NCBI GenBank assembly: GCA_031181325.1
Contig: JAPSKX010000018.1
Span: 1 to 44,160, forward strand
Direction of reading: 5' to 3'
DNA: 44,160 nucleotides
DNA from: Paenibacillus sp.
Lineage (GTDB): Bacteria > Bacillota > Bacilli > Paenibacillales > YIM-B00363
This document shows, in pieces, positions 1,740 to 33,514 of this stretch. The position numbers were made by a program, and so were the translations under genes. The first letter of the stretch is position 1, and each line of letters begins with the position of its first letter. The notes beneath the pieces are model-generated. The model searched no databases. It was given only the letters and a program-made list of their open reading frames with translations, and was not told the DNA's origin.

Positions 1740-2374
1740 CCGACGCATGCAGCGAAGTCGTCACCGCGACGTCCGCGCGCGCGAAGTCGTCCGTCAGCGT
1801 CGGACGCACGAACGCGTCCTCGATCCGCACGTCCCCGGTCGCCTCGAGAGAGACGTTGTCCCAGATTCCCTGATGAATCATCCGCGGGCAGAAATCCCAC
1901 CAATACGTCATCCGGCTCTTATGCGTGCGCACGTACCGCGTCTTGCTCACCTGCGGCTGCTCGTCGGGCGCGCGCTCGATCACGACCGCGAACACGTTGT
2001 CGCCGTCGAAGTCGATCGTCCCCGTCACGTCGAACGCCGTCGGCAAGAACATCCCCCGGTGGTCTCAGGTAAATGCGCGCTTCATAGTCGATTCCGTCGA
2101 AGCACATCCGCACGCGCCGTCCGCGCATCGAAGCCGGCGCCGCGAACCGCTTGCGGTACAGCCACGTCCGCTGCGGCACCCACTCGACGAGCAGCGAATT
2201 GCGCTCGAAGTGCGGGTCCGGCACCTCGCCCAGCGCCAATAAATCGTGCAGCACCGACCCCGGCACCGTCCCGCGCCGCCACCACCGAACGTCCTTCGTA
2301 TCGGGCTTCTCGCTGTTGCGCCAGATCCAGTCCTCGCCGACGAAATCCTTAAATTCCCAATCGTCGCCTAGTAA
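1740..2374 (-). pseudogene. Truncated, frameshifted GH2 beta-mannosidase-like gene
   Basis: Read on the minus strand from 2374, the translation begins LLGDDWEFKDFVGEDW and includes TVPGSVLHDLLALGEVPDP and RTWLYRKRF. This is the N-terminal sugar-binding domain of GH2 beta-mannosidases. After ARIYL (about 2070) the frame shifts and continues as GMFLPTAFDVTG, KTRYVRTHKSRMTYWW, DFCPRMIHQGIWDN and VRIEDAFVRP, then homology ends near 1740. A few codons appear lost at the frameshift, there is no start codon, and the whole catalytic TIM barrel is missing, so it cannot be functional. It follows the DeoR gene at the distal end of the glycan operon and was probably once its last enzyme. Confidence 0.8.
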
Positions 2375-21621: not shown

Positions 21622-24600
21622 CTATTCCCTCGCTACGGCCGTCGGTACCCGCCCGAGGAACCGATCCGTCAACGCCTCGAGGTCGAGCGCGTCGGTGCCG
21701 GACAGCACCCAGTCGGCTTCGCGCATCCGCTCCTCCAGCCCGACGCCGACGGCGAACATGCCGGCCGCTTTAATGGCCGCGACGCCGGCTTCCGCATCCT
21801 CGACGCCGACGCAGTTCCGGTACGGCACGCCGAGCGCTTCGGCCGCCGTCATGAAGATCTCGGGATCCGGCTTGCCCTTCGCCACCGCGCCGGCCTCGAC
21901 GATCGCGTCGAAGTAAGCGGTCAGGCCGAGCCGCTCGACGACGCGCCGCGCGTTGCGGCTGGCGGAAGCGATCGCGGTCTTGAGGCCCCGCGACTTGACG
22001 TCTCGCAGGAACGCCTCGACGCCCGGCAGCAGCGCCGCCGGCGTCAGCTTCTCGATCCGCTCGACGTACAACCGGTTCTTGCGTTCGGCGAGCGAGGCCT
22101 TCTCCTCCTCCGAGTACGTTCGGCTCGCGCGCTCCAGCACGATGTCGAGCGACGTCCGGCGATCGACGCCCTTCAGCCGCTCGTTCACGGACGGATCGAT
22201 CGGCACGCCCTGCTCGTCGGCGACGGCCTTCCAACACTCGTAATGGAACGATGCCGTATCGACGAGCACGCCGTCCAGATCGAAGACGATCGCTTCGAGC
22301 CGGGGACGCAAGGAGACGACCTCCGGCGCGCCGGGCTTCAGCCCCAGCGGCCGTCCTTCGTGCTCGACGGTCAACTCGCTCCCCTCGAGCAGCGTATACG
22401 TCGCATCCTCCGCCGTGACGCGCACCCGGAGCAGCTTGCCCCGGAACGAGACGACGAACGCGTAAGCGGTCCACTTCGGCGGGATGCGCGGAGCGAAGCG
22501 CAGCGTCCCTTCCCGCTCGCGCATCCCGCCGAAGCCGCTGGCGAGCGACAACCACGCGCCGGCCATCGCCGCCGTGTGCAGTCCGTCCTTCGTGTTGCCG
22601 TTCCGATCGTCGAGATCCATCCGCGCCGTGCGGAGGAAGTAGTCGCACGCCTTGTCGATGCGGCCGATCTCGGACGCTATGATGCTATAGATGCACGGCG
22701 AGAGCGACGAATCGTGCGTCGTCAACCGCTCGTAGAAGTCGAAGTCGCGGCGCTTCTGCGCAAGCGTGAAGCGGTGGCTCTGCAAGAACGACGCCAGCAC
22801 GACGTCCGCTTGCTTCAGCACTTGATGCCGGTAGATGACGAGCGGATGGTAATGGAGCAGCAGCGGATATTTGTCCGACGGCGCATGGTCGAAATCCCAC
22901 TCTGCCCGGTCTAAGAACGCATCGTCCTGCAGCGTAATGCCGCGCTCCGCGTCGTACGGGACGTACATGCGCTCCGCCGCTCGCTGCCACGCGTCGACTT
23001 CGGCGTCGTCCAGCGCGATCCGGCTCGCGAGCGAACGATATGCCTCCCGGTCCGACTCCCGGAGCCGCCGCGCCGTCGCCGCCGCGAACTCCAGATGATC
23101 CTTGGCCATCAGGTTCGTGAACGCGTTATTGTTCACGAGCGCCGTGTATTCGTCGGGGCCGGTGACGCCGTTAATGCAGAAGCCCTTATGCGGGATGTAA
23201 TCGCCGAGATCCGCCCAGAGGCGCGCCGTTTCGAAGAGGAGCTCCGCCCCTTTCTCGATCAAGAATGACTCGTCCTCCGTCGCCGCCATATACTTCTTCA
23301 GCGCATAAGCGATATCCGCGTTAATGTGGTATTGCGCCGTACCCGCCGGGAAATACGCCGACGTCTCTTCGCCGCCGATCGTGCGCCACGCGAACAAGGC
23401 GCCCTTGTGCGACATCGTGCGCGCCCGCGCCCGCGCCTTATCCAGGATGCTGTAACGGTAAGTCAGCAGCTGCTTCGCGATGTCCGGGCTCGTGTAGAGG
23501 AAGAACGGCAGAATGTACGTCTCCGTATCCCAGAAGTAATGTCCTTCGTACCCTTCCCCCGTCAGCCCTTTGGCGCCGATGTTCGTTTCCCCGTCCCGGC
23601 CGACCGATTGCAGCAGCTGGAACGCGTTGAAGCGAAGCCCTTGCTGCAGCGACGGATCGCCTTCGATCGATAGTTCGGCGCGCCGCCAGAACGCCGCGAG
23701 GAACGCCTCCTGCTCCCGCAGCAGCGCCTCGAAGCCGTCCGCCTTCGCCTTCTGCGCCGTATGCTCCGTCTCGAGCCGCAGCTTCGGCTCATCCAGCTCG
23801 GACGGCTCTTCCTTGGACGTGTGATATGCGATCGTCTTCACGAGCGTCGACGGTACGCCCTTATGCGCGGCGAACGTGAACCGGATCGCCGCGCCGTCCG
23901 CCGTCGTCCCCGCCTGAATCGCCGCAGGCTCCTCCGACTCGAGCCGATGCTCCGCGGCGCACATGACCGTAAAGCGCGAGCGTTTCGTCCGCTGCTGCAA
24001 GAACGCGAGCGTGCCGACCGCCGTCCGGTCGATCGTCTCGAGCGCCGGCTCCGTCAGCGCCGAACCGATCCGCGGATCGCCCTTAGACACTTGATTGCGC
24101 ACCGCGCCGTCGATCGTCGAGACGAGGCCGACCAAGCCGTGAAAGTTCACCGTCGTCACCGCATACCGAATGGCGGCGGCGTGCTTCCGCGCCAAGCTGA
24201 CGAGCCGCTCGATCCGCACGTCCACCTGATACCCGTTCGCCAGCTCGAGCCGCATGGCGCGGGTCAGCACGCCCTTGCGGAAATCGAGCGTCCGCTTATA
24301 ATCGAGCAGCTTGCAGGAGAAGAGATCGACGCGTTCTCCGTCGACGTGCAGCTCGATGCCGCGGGCGTCGGCGACGTTCAGCATCGTCTGCCCGATCCGC
24401 GCGTAGCCGTAGGCGTCCTCCGGGTAGCGGATCGGCTCCGTCTCGTAGAATCCGTTAATATACGTCCCGCGCGTCGAACGTCCCGCTTCGCCGCGCCAGC
24501 CCTCCTCGAAGTTGCCGCGCATGCCGAGATAGCCGTTGCCGAGGCTGAAGATCGTCTCGTCGTGCAGGTTCGTCGCCTCGTCCCAGGCAGTCTCGACGAC

Positions 24601-24663
24601 CGCCCATTCGTCGTATGCATAGAACGGCTTGAAATCCGGGTCTCTCGTATTCGTTCCAGCCAT
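21622..24663 (-). CDS. Bifunctional GH65 disaccharide phosphorylase fused to beta-phosphoglucomutase
   Basis: 1013 residues. Residues 1 to about 770 are a GH65 phosphorylase: N-terminal sandwich (ETIFSLGNGYLGMRGNFEEG), then an (alpha/alpha)6 barrel with the general-acid Glu in GVTGPDEYT and the phosphate-binding HDSSLSPCIYS. Residues about 790-1013 are a HAD beta-phosphoglucomutase: DLDGVLVDT (nucleophile and acid/base Asp), LKGVDRRTSL, SASRNA, KGKPDPEIF and VEDAEAGV. The product of the first half, beta-glucose-1-phosphate, is the substrate of the second, giving glucose-6-phosphate. AAGGGGA precedes the ATG. Disaccharide specificity (maltose, trehalose, kojibiose, nigerose) cannot be decided here. 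Confidence 0.93.
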   Translation of the reverse strand: MAGTNTRDPDFKPFYAYDEWAVVETAWDEATNLHDETIFSLGNGYLGMRGNFEEGWRGEAGRSTRGTYINGFYETEPIRYPEDAYGYARIGQTMLNVADARGIELHVDGERVDLFSCKLLDYKRTLDFRKGVLTRAMRLELANGYQVDVRIERLVSLARKHAAAIRYAVTTVNFHGLVGLVSTIDGAVRNQVSKGDPRIGSALTEPALETIDRTAVGTLAFLQQRTKRSRFTVMCAAEHRLESEEPAAIQAGTTADGAAIRFTFAAHKGVPSTLVKTIAYHTSKEEPSELDEPKLRLETEHTAQKAKADGFEALLREQEAFLAAFWRRAELSIEGDPSLQQGLRFNAFQLLQSVGRDGETNIGAKGLTGEGYEGHYFWDTETYILPFFLYTSPDIAKQLLTYRYSILDKARARARTMSHKGALFAWRTIGGEETSAYFPAGTAQYHINADIAYALKKYMAATEDESFLIEKGAELLFETARLWADLGDYIPHKGFCINGVTGPDEYTALVNNNAFTNLMAKDHLEFAAATARRLRESDREAYRSLASRIALDDAEVDAWQRAAERMYVPYDAERGITLQDDAFLDRAEWDFDHAPSDKYPLLLHYHPLVIYRHQVLKQADVVLASFLQSHRFTLAQKRRDFDFYERLTTHDSSLSPCIYSIIASEIGRIDKACDYFLRTARMDLDDRNGNTKDGLHTAAMAGAWLSLASGFGGMREREGTLRFAPRIPPKWTAYAFVVSFRGKLLRVRVTAEDATYTLLEGSELTVEHEGRPLGLKPGAPEVVSLRPRLEAIVFDLDGVLVDTASFHYECWKAVADEQGVPIDPSVNERLKGVDRRTSLDIVLERASRTYSEEEKASLAERKNRLYVERIEKLTPAALLPGVEAFLRDVKSRGLKTAIASASRNARRVVERLGLTAYFDAIVEAGAVAKGKPDPEIFMTAAEALGVPYRNCVGVEDAEAGVAAIKAAGMFAVGVGLEERMREADWVLSGTDALDLEALTDRFLGRVPTAVARE

Positions 24664-25817: not shown

Positions 25818-26384
25818 TTAACTGAACAGCGCCGCCCCCGCCAATCCGGACAGCAGAATGACGACGATCGGATGCGTCTTGTATTTCGTCAGAGCGACGA
25901 GCGAGACGAGGAAGATGGCGAGCGTCGCGAGCGTCTCCCAACCGATCGAGCCGAAGCTCGTCGGAATGACGCCGTTGCCGATCGCGAACGTGAGCGCCGC
26001 ATAGAAGATGAGTCCCGTTATGATCGGTCGCAGTCCGTAGAACCCCTTGTGGATCAAGTCGCTATTTTTTACTTTACGGAAGAACGTCGCCGCGATCAAG
26101 ACCGCGATAAGCGAGGGAAGCACCGTGCCGACCGTCGCCGCGAGGGCGCCCGGCACTCCCGCCATTCGATACCCGACGAAGATGGCGGAATTCGTGGCGA
26201 TCGGCCCCGGCGACATGCCGGCGACAGCGACGGCGTCCGTAAATTCCGGGAGCGTCATCCATGCATGGCGATGAACGACCTCCCGCTCGATGACCGGGAT
26301 CATCGAGTACCCTCCCCCGAACGATACCGCGCCGATCAGGAGGAACGTCAAGAACAGCTGAATCAACAATCCGGCGATTTCCAT
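25818..26384 (-). CDS. Chromate transporter family protein, half-size (second of pair)
   Basis: 188 residues with about six hydrophobic segments and the CHR motifs FGGGYSMIPVIEREVV and GMSPGPIATNSAIFVGYR. It is a single-domain (short) ChrA; short forms work as a heteropair, as with B. subtilis YwrA/YwrB-type genes. The ATG at 26384 lies one base after the upstream stop and has GGGGGA 11 bases before it; an ATG at 26396 has no spaced site. It may export chromate or, given the FGE gene next door, another oxyanion such as sulfate; the latter is conjecture. Confidence 0.88.
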   Translation of the reverse strand: MEIAGLLIQLFLTFLLIGAVSFGGGYSMIPVIEREVVHRHAWMTLPEFTDAVAVAGMSPGPIATNSAIFVGYRMAGVPGALAATVGTVLPSLIAVLIAATFFRKVKNSDLIHKGFYGLRPIITGLIFYAALTFAIGNGVIPTSFGSIGWETLATLAIFLVSLVALTKYKTHPIVVILLSGLAGAALFS

Positions 26385-26385
26385 C

Positions 26386-27054
26386 TCAGATGCCATCCCC
26401 CATCATGTAACCCCAATCGTCCTCTTGCGGATTCGAATCCAGCTTCGTCTTAAGCCCCGCCTTGGCGCGGATCGCGACCAGCGCGACGCCGACGAAGAAG
26501 CCGCTCGCGATCAAGAAGACCGGGTGAACGTTCGTCAGGAACAAGATCGCTACCGTCGCGGCCGTCACGCCGAAGGTCGTCTTATCGATCACCGCCGACT
26601 TCCCGATCTTCCAGCCCGCATAGCAGATGAGCGCGACGATCGCCGCGCGTACGCCTTCGAACGCGGCTTCGATCTTCGGATGCTCATGGGTCCGAAGGAA
26701 GAAGATCGAGAGAAGGAGCACGATCAGGAAGGTCGGCAGCAGCACGCCGGCCAGCGCCGCCAGCGCGCCCGCGAATCCGGCCAATCGATATCCGATGAAG
26801 GTCGCGGAATTGACGGCGATCGCGCCCGGAATCGACTGGGCTGCGGCGAACACGTCCGCGACGTCCTTCGTCTCCAGCCACTTCCGCCGTTCCACCACTT
26901 CCTGCTCGATCAGCGGAATCATCGCGTAACCGCCGCCGAACGTGACCGGACCGATCTTCAGGAAGCACAAGAAGATCTCCGGCAGCATGCCCCGACGCTT
27001 CGTCCGCGGCCGGTGCATGCCGATGCTTGCCTTCTGCGACCACGTGCGGTTCAC
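26386..27054 (-). CDS. Chromate transporter family protein, half-size (first of pair)
   Basis: 222 residues with the paired CHR motifs FGGGYAMIPLIEQEVV and SIPGAIAVNSATFIGYR, and hydrophobic segments that follow the same order as its partner. The start is GTG at 27054, preceded at 6 bases by GAGGAGGGG. The C-terminus ends in a hydrophilic tail whose TGA is adjacent to the partner's start, so the two are translated together. The pair makes up one two-domain transporter. Confidence 0.9.
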   Translation of the reverse strand: MNRTWSQKASIGMHRPRTKRRGMLPEIFLCFLKIGPVTFGGGYAMIPLIEQEVVERRKWLETKDVADVFAAAQSIPGAIAVNSATFIGYRLAGFAGALAALAGVLLPTFLIVLLLSIFFLRTHEHPKIEAAFEGVRAAIVALICYAGWKIGKSAVIDKTTFGVTAATVAILFLTNVHPVFLIASGFFVGVALVAIRAKAGLKTKLDSNPQEDDWGYMMGDGI

Positions 27055-27584: not shown

Positions 27585-27620
27585 TGGTTTCAAACCCGTG
27601 GGTAGAGGGGGGAGCTTCGC

Positions 27621-29600
27621 ATGCCGGATTGGTCTTATCATCCGATCTTCAAGCCGCTGCTGTTCGCGCTTCCGCCGGAGCGCGCGCGCCGCTATACGCT
27701 CCGCGCGATCGGGGCCGTCGGCCGCATGCCCGGCGGGGCGTTCCTCATCCGTACGCTCGGCCATCTGGAGACGCCGCCGGAGGCGAGCGCGACGCTGTGG
27801 GGCCTTCGCTTCGATTGTCCCGTCGGACTCGGTGGCGAGGTCGACCCCCGCGGGGAAGCGAGAACCGCCTTGTCGCAATTCGGCTTCGGCTATCTCGAGA
27901 TCGGTCCGATCTCGGAGCGAGGGACGCCGCCGGCGAATCTGCGGCGGGAGAAGGCCGCGCAGTCGATCCATACGGGGAATCGCTTCGCGAACGACGGCGT
28001 CGAGCGCATCGAACGGACGCTGCGTCGCGATCGACGGCGCGGCGGCCGGAGCAAGCCGCTTTTCCTGCGGCTGCGTCACGACGCCGGCGCCGCGCCGGCG
28101 GAGGCCGCCGCGCAATACGCCCGGCTGGCGGCGCGGCTCGCGCCTTACGCGGCGGCGTTCGTCGTCGACGCCATCGACGAGCGCCGGCCGGAGCCGGAGC
28201 GGAGCGCCGCGCTTCGCGGCGCCGCGGCGGCCGTTCGCGAGGCCGCGCCGGGCAAGCCGCTGTTGCTGTACGTCCCGCCCGACGCGTCGGACGAAGCGCT
28301 CGACGCTTACGCGGCGGAAGCGCGAGCGCACTGGGACGGCGTCGTCGTCGGCAGCGCCGTCGCCGATCCGAGCGGCGGCTGGCGCTCCGGCGCGGCCGCG
28401 CTCGATGACGCGCGTCGAGCGGTCGTCCGGCTCCGAAGCTTGCTCCCGCGTCCGTTCGGCATCGTCGCCGCCGGCGGCGTCGTCGAGCCGAAAGACGCCG
28501 TCGACTTGCGCCGGGACGGCGCCGATCTGATCGAGCTGAACGCCGGTCTCGTCTTCGCGGGTCCGGGCCTCCCCAAGCGGACGAACGAAGCGCTGCTGTA
28601 CGACGCGATCCGAGACGCCCCGGCGCCGGAGCCGCCGTCGTTCTGGAGGTCTTGGGGCTGGATGCAGCTGCTCGGCGTCGCCATGGGGATCGGCGGCGTC
28701 ATCGCGTGGCTGCTCGCCGCGACGACCGTCGTGCTCCCGTACGACACGCGCTTCCTCGGCATCGACCGCGACGCGCTGCATCGGTTGAACGAACGTCTGC
28801 TGCCGTTCATGGCGCATGACCGAATGACGCTCGCGGGCACGATGGTGTCGATCGGGATCATGTACATCGGCTTGGCGCGGTACGGCATGCGGCGGCGCCT
28901 GCACTGGGCCCGCATGGCGGCGATGACGTCCGGCGCCGTCGGATTTTCCGGATTTTTCCTTTATTTGGGGTACGGCTACTTCGATCCGCTGCATGCGGCC
29001 GTCTCCGCGGCGCTGCTGCCGATGTTTATCCTCGCGATGCGAGATACGAGAGACGAGCCGTCGCGTCTCCAGCCGGGCGACCGGAACGACGCCCGGTGGC
29101 GCAGGTCGTTGTACGGACAATTGGCCTTCGTCTGCGCCGGCGTCGGACTGACCGTCGGTGGCCTGGCGATCGCGGGAGTCGGCGTGACGCACGTCTTCGT
29201 CCCGTCGGACCTCGCGTACCTGGAGACGCGCGTCCCGCATCTCCACGAGGCGAACCCGCGGCTCGTTCCGGTCATCGCGCACGACCGCGCGGGCTTCGGA
29301 GGAGCGCTCTTCGCGGACGGGCTGGCCGTCCTGATGACGGCGCTCTGGGGATTGCAGCAAGGGGAGCGATGGGTCTGGCGCATGCTGCTGCTCGCGGGCC
29401 TTCCGGGCTTCGCCGCGGGACTCGGCGTCCATTGGTCGATCGGTTATACGGATTTCCTTCATCTGTTGCCCGTCTACGCGCTCGTTGCGCTCTATGCGAT
29501 CGGACTCGTCCTGCTGTATCCGTACTTGCACGCCCGGAACGACGCTCCGCCCGTGGCGGCGGCGGCTACGAAGAGCGCAGAGCCGGAATCGTTAAGGTGA
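27621..29600 (+). CDS. DHODH-like domain fused to a duplicated multi-helix membrane domain
   Basis: 659 residues. Residues 1-335 follow the class 2 dihydroorotate dehydrogenase fold (FKPLLFALPPERARRYTLRAI; LWGLRFDCPVGLGGEVD; GFGYLEIGPIS; NDGVERIERTL; and the FMN-phosphate region AAGGV...LIELNAGLVFAGPGL). The expected substrate and catalytic positions are changed: the FDKNG Lys region reads EVDPRG, the Ser-containing SSPNTPG segment reads DAIDERRPEP, and the VKI(A)P Lys is absent. From 346 to 640 come six or more membrane helices in two ~110-residue copies, each with AHDR (His399, His554) and D-x-LH (Asp455/His458, Asp611/His614). GGGGGGA precedes the ATG at 27621. It is probably not a pyrimidine enzyme; function unknown. 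Confidence 0.8.
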   Translation: MPDWSYHPIFKPLLFALPPERARRYTLRAIGAVGRMPGGAFLIRTLGHLETPPEASATLWGLRFDCPVGLGGEVDPRGEARTALSQFGFGYLEIGPISERGTPPANLRREKAAQSIHTGNRFANDGVERIERTLRRDRRRGGRSKPLFLRLRHDAGAAPAEAAAQYARLAARLAPYAAAFVVDAIDERRPEPERSAALRGAAAAVREAAPGKPLLLYVPPDASDEALDAYAAEARAHWDGVVVGSAVADPSGGWRSGAAALDDARRAVVRLRSLLPRPFGIVAAGGVVEPKDAVDLRRDGADLIELNAGLVFAGPGLPKRTNEALLYDAIRDAPAPEPPSFWRSWGWMQLLGVAMGIGGVIAWLLAATTVVLPYDTRFLGIDRDALHRLNERLLPFMAHDRMTLAGTMVSIGIMYIGLARYGMRRRLHWARMAAMTSGAVGFSGFFLYLGYGYFDPLHAAVSAALLPMFILAMRDTRDEPSRLQPGDRNDARWRRSLYGQLAFVCAGVGLTVGGLAIAGVGVTHVFVPSDLAYLETRVPHLHEANPRLVPVIAHDRAGFGGALFADGLAVLMTALWGLQQGERWVWRMLLLAGLPGFAAGLGVHWSIGYTDFLHLLPVYALVALYAIGLVLLYPYLHARNDAPPVAAAATKSAEPESLR

Positions 29601-30807
29601 CCGTCGTTCCCCGGCCGGGCTGGCTTTGGATCCGAAGCCGGCCCTGCAGGGAATGGACGAAATGATAACAATACATAAGGCCTGTCCCCGTACCGTTGCT
29701 GCGCGTATTGTATTTCGGCATGCCGAGCTGCTCGAGCTGCTCGTCCGTCATGCCGATGCCGTTATCCGAGACGACGATCGCGAGCTCTTTCCCTTTCCAA
29801 TACGAAGAGACGGACAGCTTGCCGCCGCGATGCAGCGCATTGGCGCCGTTGCGCAGCAGATGCATGAGGCACAGCCTCAGCTGCTCCTCGTTGCACAGGA
29901 GAACGATGTCCTCCGACACGGCGTTCACGAGATCGATTTTCTTCGTTTCGATCGCGGGCCAGATGTCGCGCAGCGCTCCTTCGATGCTCGCCGACACCGA
30001 AACGTTCGTCTTCTCCGCTTCCTGCAGCGTCGTGATCGTTAAGTACGTATGAATGATTTTCTCCGCTTCGTTCAACTCTTGCATGGCCGTATTCACGTAA
30101 TATAGGACTTGTTCGGACGGGTTTTGCCGTTTGATCAATTGCAGGAAGCCGCTGACCGTCGTCAGCGGGTTGCGCAGCTCGTGCGCGATCAGGACGGCGA
30201 GACTGCCGCTGACCGTCAGTTTCTCCATGCGGACGATCTCGCTGCGGACCGAAGCCGTCTCGCGAATATGCTCGGTCAGGAGCAGCGTCAACATCAGAAG
30301 CCCCGACTGTATGCCGGCGAAGAGGAGCGCGGCATCGATCGGCGGGAAGACGGCTTCGACGGCGCCGCTCGCGAAGAGAAGCACGGCGCCGAAGACGGAG
30401 AAGGCGGCGCACCATAACAGCTTCCGCAGCCATGCCGCCGCGAAGAACCTCGTTCGCGCGAAGCCGACGAACGCCGCGATCGCAAGCGAAACCGCGGCCG
30501 TCTCGAGCGTGTCGACGCCGGAGATGAAATGCCTCGCCGTCGCCGCGACGACCGACAACGCGGCGCCGACCGGCCATCCGCCGTATAAGGTGCCGGCGAT
30601 GAGGGGAATGAATTTCAAATCGAACGTATGAACATATTCGTACGTGTATGGAAAGAACATGCAGCCGACCAACGGGACGCTCATGAAGCATCCGATCGCG
30701 AGCGAGCCCTTGCGTTGGAACGGCAGCTGCCGCGAGAACGTCTGAAGCACGAGAAACGGATACGTGATGAACATGATATTGACCAGAATCGATGTGAAAT
30801 TGTTCAT
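29566..30807 (-). CDS. Second orphan sensor histidine kinase, KinB-like
   Basis: 413 residues. A six-helix N-terminal membrane sensor of the 5TMR-LYT kind (LKFIPLIAGTLYGGWPVGAAL) precedes the H-box AVLIAHELRNPLTTVSGFLQL and the ATPase motifs (MHLLRNGANALHRGG, DNGIGMT, GTGTGLMYCYHFV). It is similar in plan to the kinase at 19549-20814. I used ATG 30807, which has GAAGGGA just upstream, although a GTG at 30819 is also in frame. Its last 35 bases overlap the end of the convergent DHODH-like gene. There is no adjacent response regulator, which fits a phosphorelay input. Confidence 0.9.
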   Translation of the reverse strand: MNNFTSILVNIMFITYPFLVLQTFSRQLPFQRKGSLAIGCFMSVPLVGCMFFPYTYEYVHTFDLKFIPLIAGTLYGGWPVGAALSVVAATARHFISGVDTLETAAVSLAIAAFVGFARTRFFAAAWLRKLLWCAAFSVFGAVLLFASGAVEAVFPPIDAALLFAGIQSGLLMLTLLLTEHIRETASVRSEIVRMEKLTVSGSLAVLIAHELRNPLTTVSGFLQLIKRQNPSEQVLYYVNTAMQELNEAEKIIHTYLTITTLQEAEKTNVSVSASIEGALRDIWPAIETKKIDLVNAVSEDIVLLCNEEQLRLCLMHLLRNGANALHRGGKLSVSSYWKGKELAIVVSDNGIGMTDEQLEQLGMPKYNTRSNGTGTGLMYCYHFVHSLQGRLRIQSQPGRGTTVTLTIPALRSS

Positions 30808-30990
30808 GGTCCCTTCCACCCACTCATCGGTCCTCAGTGCCTCTCGACGTCGAATTTTGTCTCATTATACCATTAACTGCCAATGAATGGATATAAAAAA
30901 GACCTCATTCCCGTAGGAAGGAAGCCTTATTTTTGCGGGGATATCTTGTATAATGGAGCAAGCATTTATCGAATTCGGGAGGGCGGCCGC

Positions 30991-31879: not shown

Positions 31880-32173
31880 TTACCCGTACTTGTACGTGAT
31901 CCCGTACCCGCCCTTCGGATATACCCAGTAGATGTTGTGCGAAGGGCAGGCGATGCGGCAGGTGCCGCATTCGATGCAATTTTCGTAGGCGACGGTCGTG
32001 ATCTTCTGTTTCCCGTCCCACTCGTACACGTCCGAGGGGCAGAAGTAGTTGCAATCCTTCGTCGTGCACTTCAGGCACGCGTCCCGCTCCTTAATGATCA
32101 GGTGCGACTGGTCGTCGCACTTATACCGAATCGTAAACAGCCGATCCGTCACCGCCGAATTGCCGCTGCTCAT
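31880..32173 (-). CDS. fixX: FixX-type ferredoxin-like protein
   Basis: 97 residues. It has the FixX pattern CLKCTTKDCNYFCPSDVYEW followed by NCIECGTCRIACP, giving the Cys set for a [4Fe-4S] cluster. It pairs with FixC to pass electrons from the bifurcating Etf to the quinone. I chose ATG 32173 (MSSGNS), which overlaps the fixC TGA by 4 bases and has GGAGGG upstream; an ATG at 32191 lies inside fixC with a poorer site. It is last in the fixABCX operon. Its stop is only 7 bases from the convergent AraC stop, with no room for a terminator between them. Confidence 0.93.
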   Translation of the reverse strand: MSSGNSAVTDRLFTIRYKCDDQSHLIIKERDACLKCTTKDCNYFCPSDVYEWDGKQKITTVAYENCIECGTCRIACPSHNIYWVYPKGGYGITYKYG

Positions 32174-33480
32174 CCGTTCATCGCCCTCCATCCCTTGTAG
32201 CCGAGCTTCATCAGGCCCGCCGGTCCGCCGGCAGCCTTCTTGATGATGTCGATCGCCTTCCTCTGCTTCGCCGCCTTCGTCTCCCCGTCCACGAGGAACA
32301 TCTGGTACGCCGCCTCGTTCGCCGCGCGCGGCAGCTTCTCGAACAGCAGCTCCGGATTTTCGTCCTTCAGCAGCTGATGCATTCCCTTGTATTTCTTCAG
32401 GTCTTTCCCCACGAACGACTCCCGGATATTACGGTCGTAGGAGGAAAGCGAGGCCGCGGAATAATTTTCGACCGCTCGTGCCCGAACAATCGCTTCCCCC
32501 GCCAGCCTTCCCGACGTCATCGCGAGGTTCGTGCCTTCGCGGTGTACGAAGTTGACGAGCTGCGCCGCGTCGCCGCAGACGACCCACCCGGCGCCCGACA
32601 GCGGCGGGATCGAATGGTACCCGCCCTCGGGAATGAGATGCCCGGAATACTCCTTCGTCTCGCCGCCTTGAATGAGCTTGCGGATCATCGGATGCTGCTT
32701 CACCGCGTCCAGCACGGCGTACGGCTTCACCTTCTTCTCTCGCAGATGGCTCACCATGACGCCGACGCCGAGCGAGATCGTCTCCTTGTTCGTGTACAGG
32801 AACCCCATGCCCGCCATGCCGAGCGACGTCTCGCCCATGAATTCGATCGTGACGCCCTCGTCGCCCTCGAGATTGAACCGATCCTCGAGCTTCTCCCGAG
32901 GCAGCGCGATGACCTCCTTCACGGCGAGCGACACCTGGTCGGGCTCCCACTCCTTATGAATGCCCATCGCCTTGCCGAGCAGCGAATTGACGCCGTCGGC
33001 GATGACGACGACGTTCGCGTACAGGTCGCCGTCCTCCCGGTCCGTGCGAACGCCGACGACCTTGTCGCCCTCGCGAATGACTTCGGTGACGACCGTCTCG
33101 TAGACGGGGACGGCGCCCGCCTCGACCGCCTTGCTCGCGAACCATTGGTCGAACTTGACCCGAAGGCCCGTAAAACAGTTGTACGGCGCCTTGTACGCCT
33201 CGTTCCGGTGGCCGAGCGTCACCATCGACTCCTTGCCCATGAGCCAGATGCGCTGCTCGACGATGTGCCGTTCGATCGGCGCGTTCTTCTCCGTCCAGAA
33301 TTCCGGCACGAGCTCCTCGATTTGCTTGCGGTACAATACGCCGCCGAACAAGTTTTTCGCGCCGGGGAACTCGCCCCGCTCGATCAGCGCCACGGACAGC
33401 CCCGCCCGCGCCATCGTCATCGCCGCCGCCGCGCCCGCCGGACCCGCCCCGACGACGACCGCGTCGAACTTCTCCGTCAT
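32170..33480 (-). CDS. fixC: FixC-type FAD-dependent Etf:quinone oxidoreductase
   Basis: 436 residues. The N-terminal Rossmann motif VVVGAGPAGAAAA binds FAD. FGGVLY, GKESMVTLGHRNEAYKAPYNC, VVIADGVNSLLGKAMGI and WVVCGDAAQLVNFVHREGTNLAMTSGRLAGEA match the geranylgeranyl-reductase-like/Etf-QO FixC family. It accepts electrons from EtfAB and reduces the membrane quinone together with FixX. The start at 33480 (MTEKFDAVVVG) has GGAAGGGG upstream; a longer frame to 33852 overlaps etfA and is spurious. Confidence 0.95.
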   Translation of the reverse strand: MTEKFDAVVVGAGPAGAAAAMTMARAGLSVALIERGEFPGAKNLFGGVLYRKQIEELVPEFWTEKNAPIERHIVEQRIWLMGKESMVTLGHRNEAYKAPYNCFTGLRVKFDQWFASKAVEAGAVPVYETVVTEVIREGDKVVGVRTDREDGDLYANVVVIADGVNSLLGKAMGIHKEWEPDQVSLAVKEVIALPREKLEDRFNLEGDEGVTIEFMGETSLGMAGMGFLYTNKETISLGVGVMVSHLREKKVKPYAVLDAVKQHPMIRKLIQGGETKEYSGHLIPEGGYHSIPPLSGAGWVVCGDAAQLVNFVHREGTNLAMTSGRLAGEAIVRARAVENYSAASLSSYDRNIRESFVGKDLKKYKGMHQLLKDENPELLFEKLPRAANEAAYQMFLVDGETKAAKQRKAIDIIKKAAGGPAGLMKLGYKGWRAMNG

Positions 33481-33514
33481 ACGCCCCACCCCTTCCTCTT
33501 CGGTTGATAATCCG

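Follow-up and report, generated by a model that had tools for sequence, protein, structure and literature searches.

The window analysed here is a stretch of 44,160 nucleotides from the genome of a Paenibacillus species. It contains an open reading frame on the forward strand (27621..29600) that begins with ATG at 27621, is preceded by a probable ribosome-binding site read from the sequence (GAGGGGGGAG, 27605..27614, forward strand; purine-rich and 6 bases 5' of the ATG), and encodes a protein of 659 amino acids in which a pseudo-dihydroorotate dehydrogenase (DHODH) barrel is fused to a duplicated membrane module of eight helices. Residues 1-50 (27621..27770), which open with a near-invariant MPDWSY, form N-terminal helices that correspond to the membrane/quinone microdomain (alpha1-alpha2) of class-2 DHODH; residues 51-332 (27771..28616) form a DHODH-like alpha/beta barrel lacking the catalytic Ser, Lys and Asn; and residues 345-636 (28653..29528) form the membrane module with its 8 predicted transmembrane (TM) helices, divided into repeat 1 (residues 345-475, TM1-TM4, 28653..29045) and repeat 2 (residues 491-636, TM5-TM8, 29091..29528), all on the forward strand. 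An AlphaFold2 model built with a family alignment (pLDDT 94.0, pTM 0.91) has three N-terminal helices, the barrel and then eight long helices plus two short ones between TM1-TM2 and TM5-TM6, and its barrel superposes on DHODH structures with TM-scores of up to 0.82 (M. tuberculosis DHODH).

The gene is convergent with that of a sensor kinase of 5TMR_LYT-HisKA-HATPase_c architecture (29566..30819, reverse strand) and overlaps it by 35 bp, as the preliminary description of this DNA had reported; the kinase gene lies outside the conserved unit. Other genes nearby on the reverse strand include two overlapping half-size chromate transporter genes (25818-27054, both PF02417), which diverge from it; genes for a FixX-like ferredoxin and a FixC-like flavoprotein of ETF-QO type (31880-33486), quinone-linked and some 2.3 kb away from the fusion gene; and a gene of 1013 codons fusing a GH65 phosphorylase-type enzyme to a HAD hydrolase resembling beta-phosphoglucomutase (21622-24663).

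Residues 6-330 match class-2 DHODH over its full length, weakly (NCBIfam NF003652, E 7.6e-38; Pfam DHO_dh, E 7e-10), and the score against NF003652, the best NCBIfam equivalog, fails the curated threshold (131 bits versus a cut-off of 267). The active site was compared in an alignment of 64 rows, comprising the window protein and 63 members of less than 72% identity, with the true PyrD proteins of the same genomes; positions follow the numbering and residue roles of E. coli DHODH, placed by motif. The Lys66 position is mostly Pro, that of Asn111 mostly Glu or Ala, and that of Lys217 mostly Tyr. SSPNTPGLR, the segment that includes the catalytic Ser, has been either lost or replaced, and the columns of Asn177 and Arg182 consist mostly or entirely of gaps. 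Ser is found at position 175 in 9 of the 64 rows and Lys at position 217 in one, in each case in a gapped region from which the surrounding segment is missing. The preliminary description had recognized a DHODH backbone without the defining Lys, Ser and Asn segments in the window protein; these are indeed absent from it, and no row of the alignment restores the set. Arg at the Asn139 position (57 of 64 rows) and Asp or Glu at the Asn172 position (56 of 64) are conserved replacements, compatible with a flavin site that may have been filled in. Since the residues that align with contacts to flavin and substrate are replaced, the flavin part of the earlier interpretation is weakened. The phosphate-loop region (residues 285-323, 28473..28589, forward strand; GG(V/I)..EP.DA..GAD...GLV..GPGLPKR.NE) is retained: the Gly-Gly and GP positions of the FMN phosphate loops are largely kept in Bacilli and partly lost in a relative from Mycobacterium branderi, and all of 126 proteins compared have G314-P315-G316 and R320.

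A true pyrD, the presence of which had been suggested as a check, is located elsewhere in the window genome (G000:C95, E 3e-89) and in all 30 of the other carrier genomes tested (each E <= 1e-78). Because the catalytic set is replaced and a true pyrD coexists with it, the fusion protein is, judging by its sequence, a DHODH-like pseudoenzyme and not a pyrimidine enzyme, as the preliminary description had proposed. It resembles class-2 DHODH (PyrD, PF01180) in that the N-terminal membrane helices and the barrel fold align end to end and the phosphate-loop region is largely kept, but differs in the missing Ser/Lys/Asn set, the additional eight-helix module and an inverted pattern of conservation. 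That it might instead be a working, membrane-tethered DHODH with displaced catalytic residues is scarcely credible: the full-length profile match and the fold match of 0.82 would agree with this, but Ser175, Lys66, Lys217 and Asn177 are not conserved as such and the set reappears in no aligned member, every tested carrier has its own pyrD, and the barrel of the M. branderi member is too short for a DHODH.

The inversion is apparent from mean pairwise identities, which reach 62% across residues 1-50 and 61-63% in each of the repeats but 39% in the barrel, or, with other boundaries and sampling, 54% for the N-terminal helices, 36% for the barrel and 58% for the module; true PyrD proteins of the same four genomes have the reverse pattern, with 73% in the barrel and 67% at the N-terminus. 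The N-terminal helices are now probably important, presumably through packing on the membrane module. Comparison with two sister species gives the module a dN/dS of 0.20-0.24 and the barrel one of 0.30-0.31, values that indicate purifying selection on the gene.

The two halves of the module align far above chance, in line with the two copies described earlier: BLASTP gives 31% identity over 121 amino acids (E 1e-14), the Smith-Waterman score is 149, where 1000 composition shuffles reach at most 61 and 1000 hydropathy-preserving shuffles at most 80 (z of 14-21), and hhalign of the two repeat profiles gives a probability of 99.3% (E 1.8e-20). By these alignments the module is evidently an internal duplication of a four-helix unit; the unit is nearer to 130-145 residues than to the approximately 110 residues first estimated. 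Invariance was scored in 126 proteins, the M. branderi relative included. In repeat 1, D375 (28743..28745) and H399-D400-R401 (28815..28823, at the outer end of TM2 in the AlphaFold2 helix map) are invariant in 126 of 126, and H458 (28992..28994, outer end of TM4) is present in 125, with one Gln. In repeat 2, D530 (29208..29210), H554-D555-R556 (29280..29288, outer end of TM6 in the same map) and H614 (29460..29462, outer end of TM8) are invariant, as are Y609, W576, W584, W586 and H604 (29430..29432, outer end of TM7), the last of which belongs to repeat 2 only; all these codons are on the forward strand. His399, His458, His554 and His614 are at the residues given in the preliminary description, with spacings of 59 and 60. 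With the barrel taken to be cytosolic, and from the basic loops at TM2-TM3, TM4-TM5 and TM6-TM7 and the helix map, D375, HDR 399-401, D455/H458, D530, HDR 554-556, H604 and H614 may all be placed near the outer face of the membrane.

A profile search with the membrane module alone (the last 315 residues) matched no Pfam, NCBIfam or PDB family, and a fold search against PDB and viral structures gave nothing at E <= 0.001. The barrel is a variant of the known class-2 DHODH fold, and the module is without a named family in the libraries searched. No module was found in viral contigs, no match in a defence-system library, and no description of such a fusion in a search of the open-access literature. 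Of the PDB folds, the one matched to the module with the highest probability was chain O of 8xqw, a Ycf2-FtsHi complex (probability 0.97, TM-score 0.50, rmsd 9.5, E 0.2). Module profiles also pick up RNA polymerase beta in the PDB through D..YL..N.NLIP..HD..R, a motif shared by chance that brings false matches into weak searches. Candidate single-unit relatives elsewhere in the phylum, mostly in frames of about 1200 amino acids, resemble this polymerase motif and were treated as chance matches.

The module profile has matches in 103 of 395 genomes in a sample of the order and in 34 of 399 in a sample of the class (a few of the matches are fragments or weak), and a phylum sample added no carriers outside Bacilli. 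Nearly all carriers have one fused frame of about 590-690 amino acids starting with PDW(S/T)Y, and those with names are mostly Paenibacillus and Cohnella. In one carrier (G364; L153, ~1933-1977, reverse strand) the frame changes in the linker that joins the barrel to the module; the gene may be naturally split there, or the assembly may be in error. The protein WP_233811857.1 of Cytobacillus spongiae (L188:6001-7773) is the same fusion and differs only in its public name, "dihydroorotate dehydrogenase", which is a misannotation. Outside Bacilli, plasmid pJCM12687 of M. branderi encodes a relative of 505 amino acids annotated as a hypothetical protein (WP_083132801.1; L187:7509-9026), which shares the PDW(T)YHPL start (here VPDWTYHPL), GPG..R and, at 44% identity, the membrane module, but its barrel has shrunk to about 190 residues and has no Pfam or NCBIfam DHODH match. 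With the barrel shrunken and the module retained, the membrane module appears to be what is kept. A related N-terminal fragment of 75 amino acids, 69% identical over 61 amino acids, is encoded on a plasmid of M. intracellulare (L219:4001-4225).

The surroundings of the gene were compared among carriers. The convergent 35-bp overlap with the kinase recurs in the sister genome G003, but adjacency of the kinase is limited to the genus of the window, and the neighbours differ in G006 and in the other named carriers. In another sister, G002 (L015, G002:C3, ~1501-1680), the kinase and flanks are kept and the fusion gene is reduced by a recent deletion to a C-terminal remnant (residues 591-650, with one stop). 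Thus, the fusion gene appears to be dispensable and not tied to the kinase. A redox or flavin sensor signalling through the convergent kinase, to which the overlap in the window and in G003 would lend itself, is very improbable given the genus-limited adjacency and the retention of the kinase in G002 after loss of the gene. The earlier suggestion of a sensor rather than a pyrimidine enzyme stands in its second part, and a kinase-linked sensor is not supported, the kinase being a common neighbour only in the window's genus. Chromate transporter and Fix genes, FixX among them, are likewise common beside the fusion gene only in the genus among the loci compared, with C. spongiae, whose plasmid copy has a chromate transporter nearby as in the window, as an exception; no conserved redox neighbour was found in these loci. 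In three distant carriers (L159, L162, L170) the fusion gene comes after a series of apparent KbaA, PdaB and SpoIIM-like genes and then an OsmC-like gene (named by eye).

Several functions of the module were considered. The one favoured here, tentatively, is that the protein may consist of a dead DHODH that caps a duplicated membrane redox module with heme b or menaquinol, and a heme or quinone site in the module, as first suggested, is plausible. According to this proposal, the catalytically dead class-2 DHODH domain and its quinone-side N-terminal helices would cap the cytosolic face, and the working part would be the module of two four-helix bundles, each of which would bring an invariant Asp, the His-Asp-Arg triplet and one further His close to the outer leaflet. 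The histidines of TM2/TM4 and TM6/TM8 might then serve as axial ligands of heme b, or form a menaquinol site, and electrons would be moved within the membrane by the fusion protein; the helices are Gly-rich, two His would lie at one depth in each bundle, and the Arg could hold a heme propionate. The proposal agrees with the replaced catalytic positions, with the coexisting pyrD in 30 of 30 genomes and the lower conservation of the barrel than of the helices and module, with the invariance of D, HDR and H in both repeats as far as M. branderi, the 44% identity of its module beside a shrunken barrel, dN/dS of 0.20-0.31, and the predicted position of the invariant residues, by the helix map and basic inner loops, at the outer face. 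Against it are the Gln that replaces H458 in one member, the lack of a conserved redox neighbour in the loci compared, and the Asp and Arg of HDR together with D375 and D530, which would also suit a metal or catalytic site.

A metal or catalytic site is indeed nearly as likely as a redox module. The outer-leaflet D, HDR and D..H clusters could provide metal or acid-base sites for an enzyme within the membrane, whose substrate might for example be a lipid or an isoprenoid, and the barrel would then be a scaffold or a phosphate-ligand domain; this possibility would account for the joint invariance of Asp, His, Asp and Arg in both repeats, for the invariant W576, W584 and W586, and for the retained phosphate-loop residues and GPG..R, but the module matches no known membrane enzyme by profile or fold, retention of a catalytic site in both halves would be unusual, and D611 of repeat 2 varies. 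A transporter or channel, in which the duplicated module would carry a solute across the membrane with the barrel as the sensor of a cytosolic ligand, is unlikely: internal duplication is common in transporters, and the weak Foldseek matches of the module (among 50 listed) are mostly MFS proteins, but their TM-scores are close to 0.2 and their E values exceed 0.05, and a parallel 4+4 repeat with its invariant charges all near one face would be an atypical permeation path.

The redox proposal draws further on a likeness to the heme A synthase CtaA, an 8-helix protein in which heme b is held in the C bundle by two His (PMC7327177). The His register of the fusion protein (0/59/155/215) is close to that of the CtaA of the window genome (0/61/154/219), a likeness noticed post hoc. 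CtaA/Cox15 (PF02628) also resembles the module in having eight helices as two four-helix bundles (predicted here), an internal duplication, four His in TM2, TM4, TM6 and TM8, and H-R at TM2 and TM6 where the fusion has H-D-R, but the fusion has no conserved Cys pair, and CtaA itself coexists in the window genome. Homology to CtaA was rejected: hhalign gives 0.6%, and neither the whole module nor its halves rise above the level of reversed-sequence and other membrane-family controls, compared with 99% for the N-half against the C-half of CtaA as a positive control, and no CtaA structure is among the 50 Foldseek matches listed for the module. Since profile comparison detects no homology, the likeness to CtaA is used as a working analogy, not as evidence of membership. 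A more doubtful elaboration of the redox proposal is that the module may represent an undescribed duplicated di-heme or quinol four-helix family, independent of CtaA, with the dead DHODH and its quinone helices re-used as a cytosolic gate or cap in Bacilli and mycobacteria.

The name of a pyrimidine enzyme thus seems to conceal a conserved and widespread membrane family, in which a metabolic enzyme, its conservation pattern inverted, has been turned into a scaffold on a membrane domain without a named relative. Binding of heme or quinol by the histidines would make the family a new component of the respiratory membrane, and binding of metal would make it a new intramembrane enzyme.
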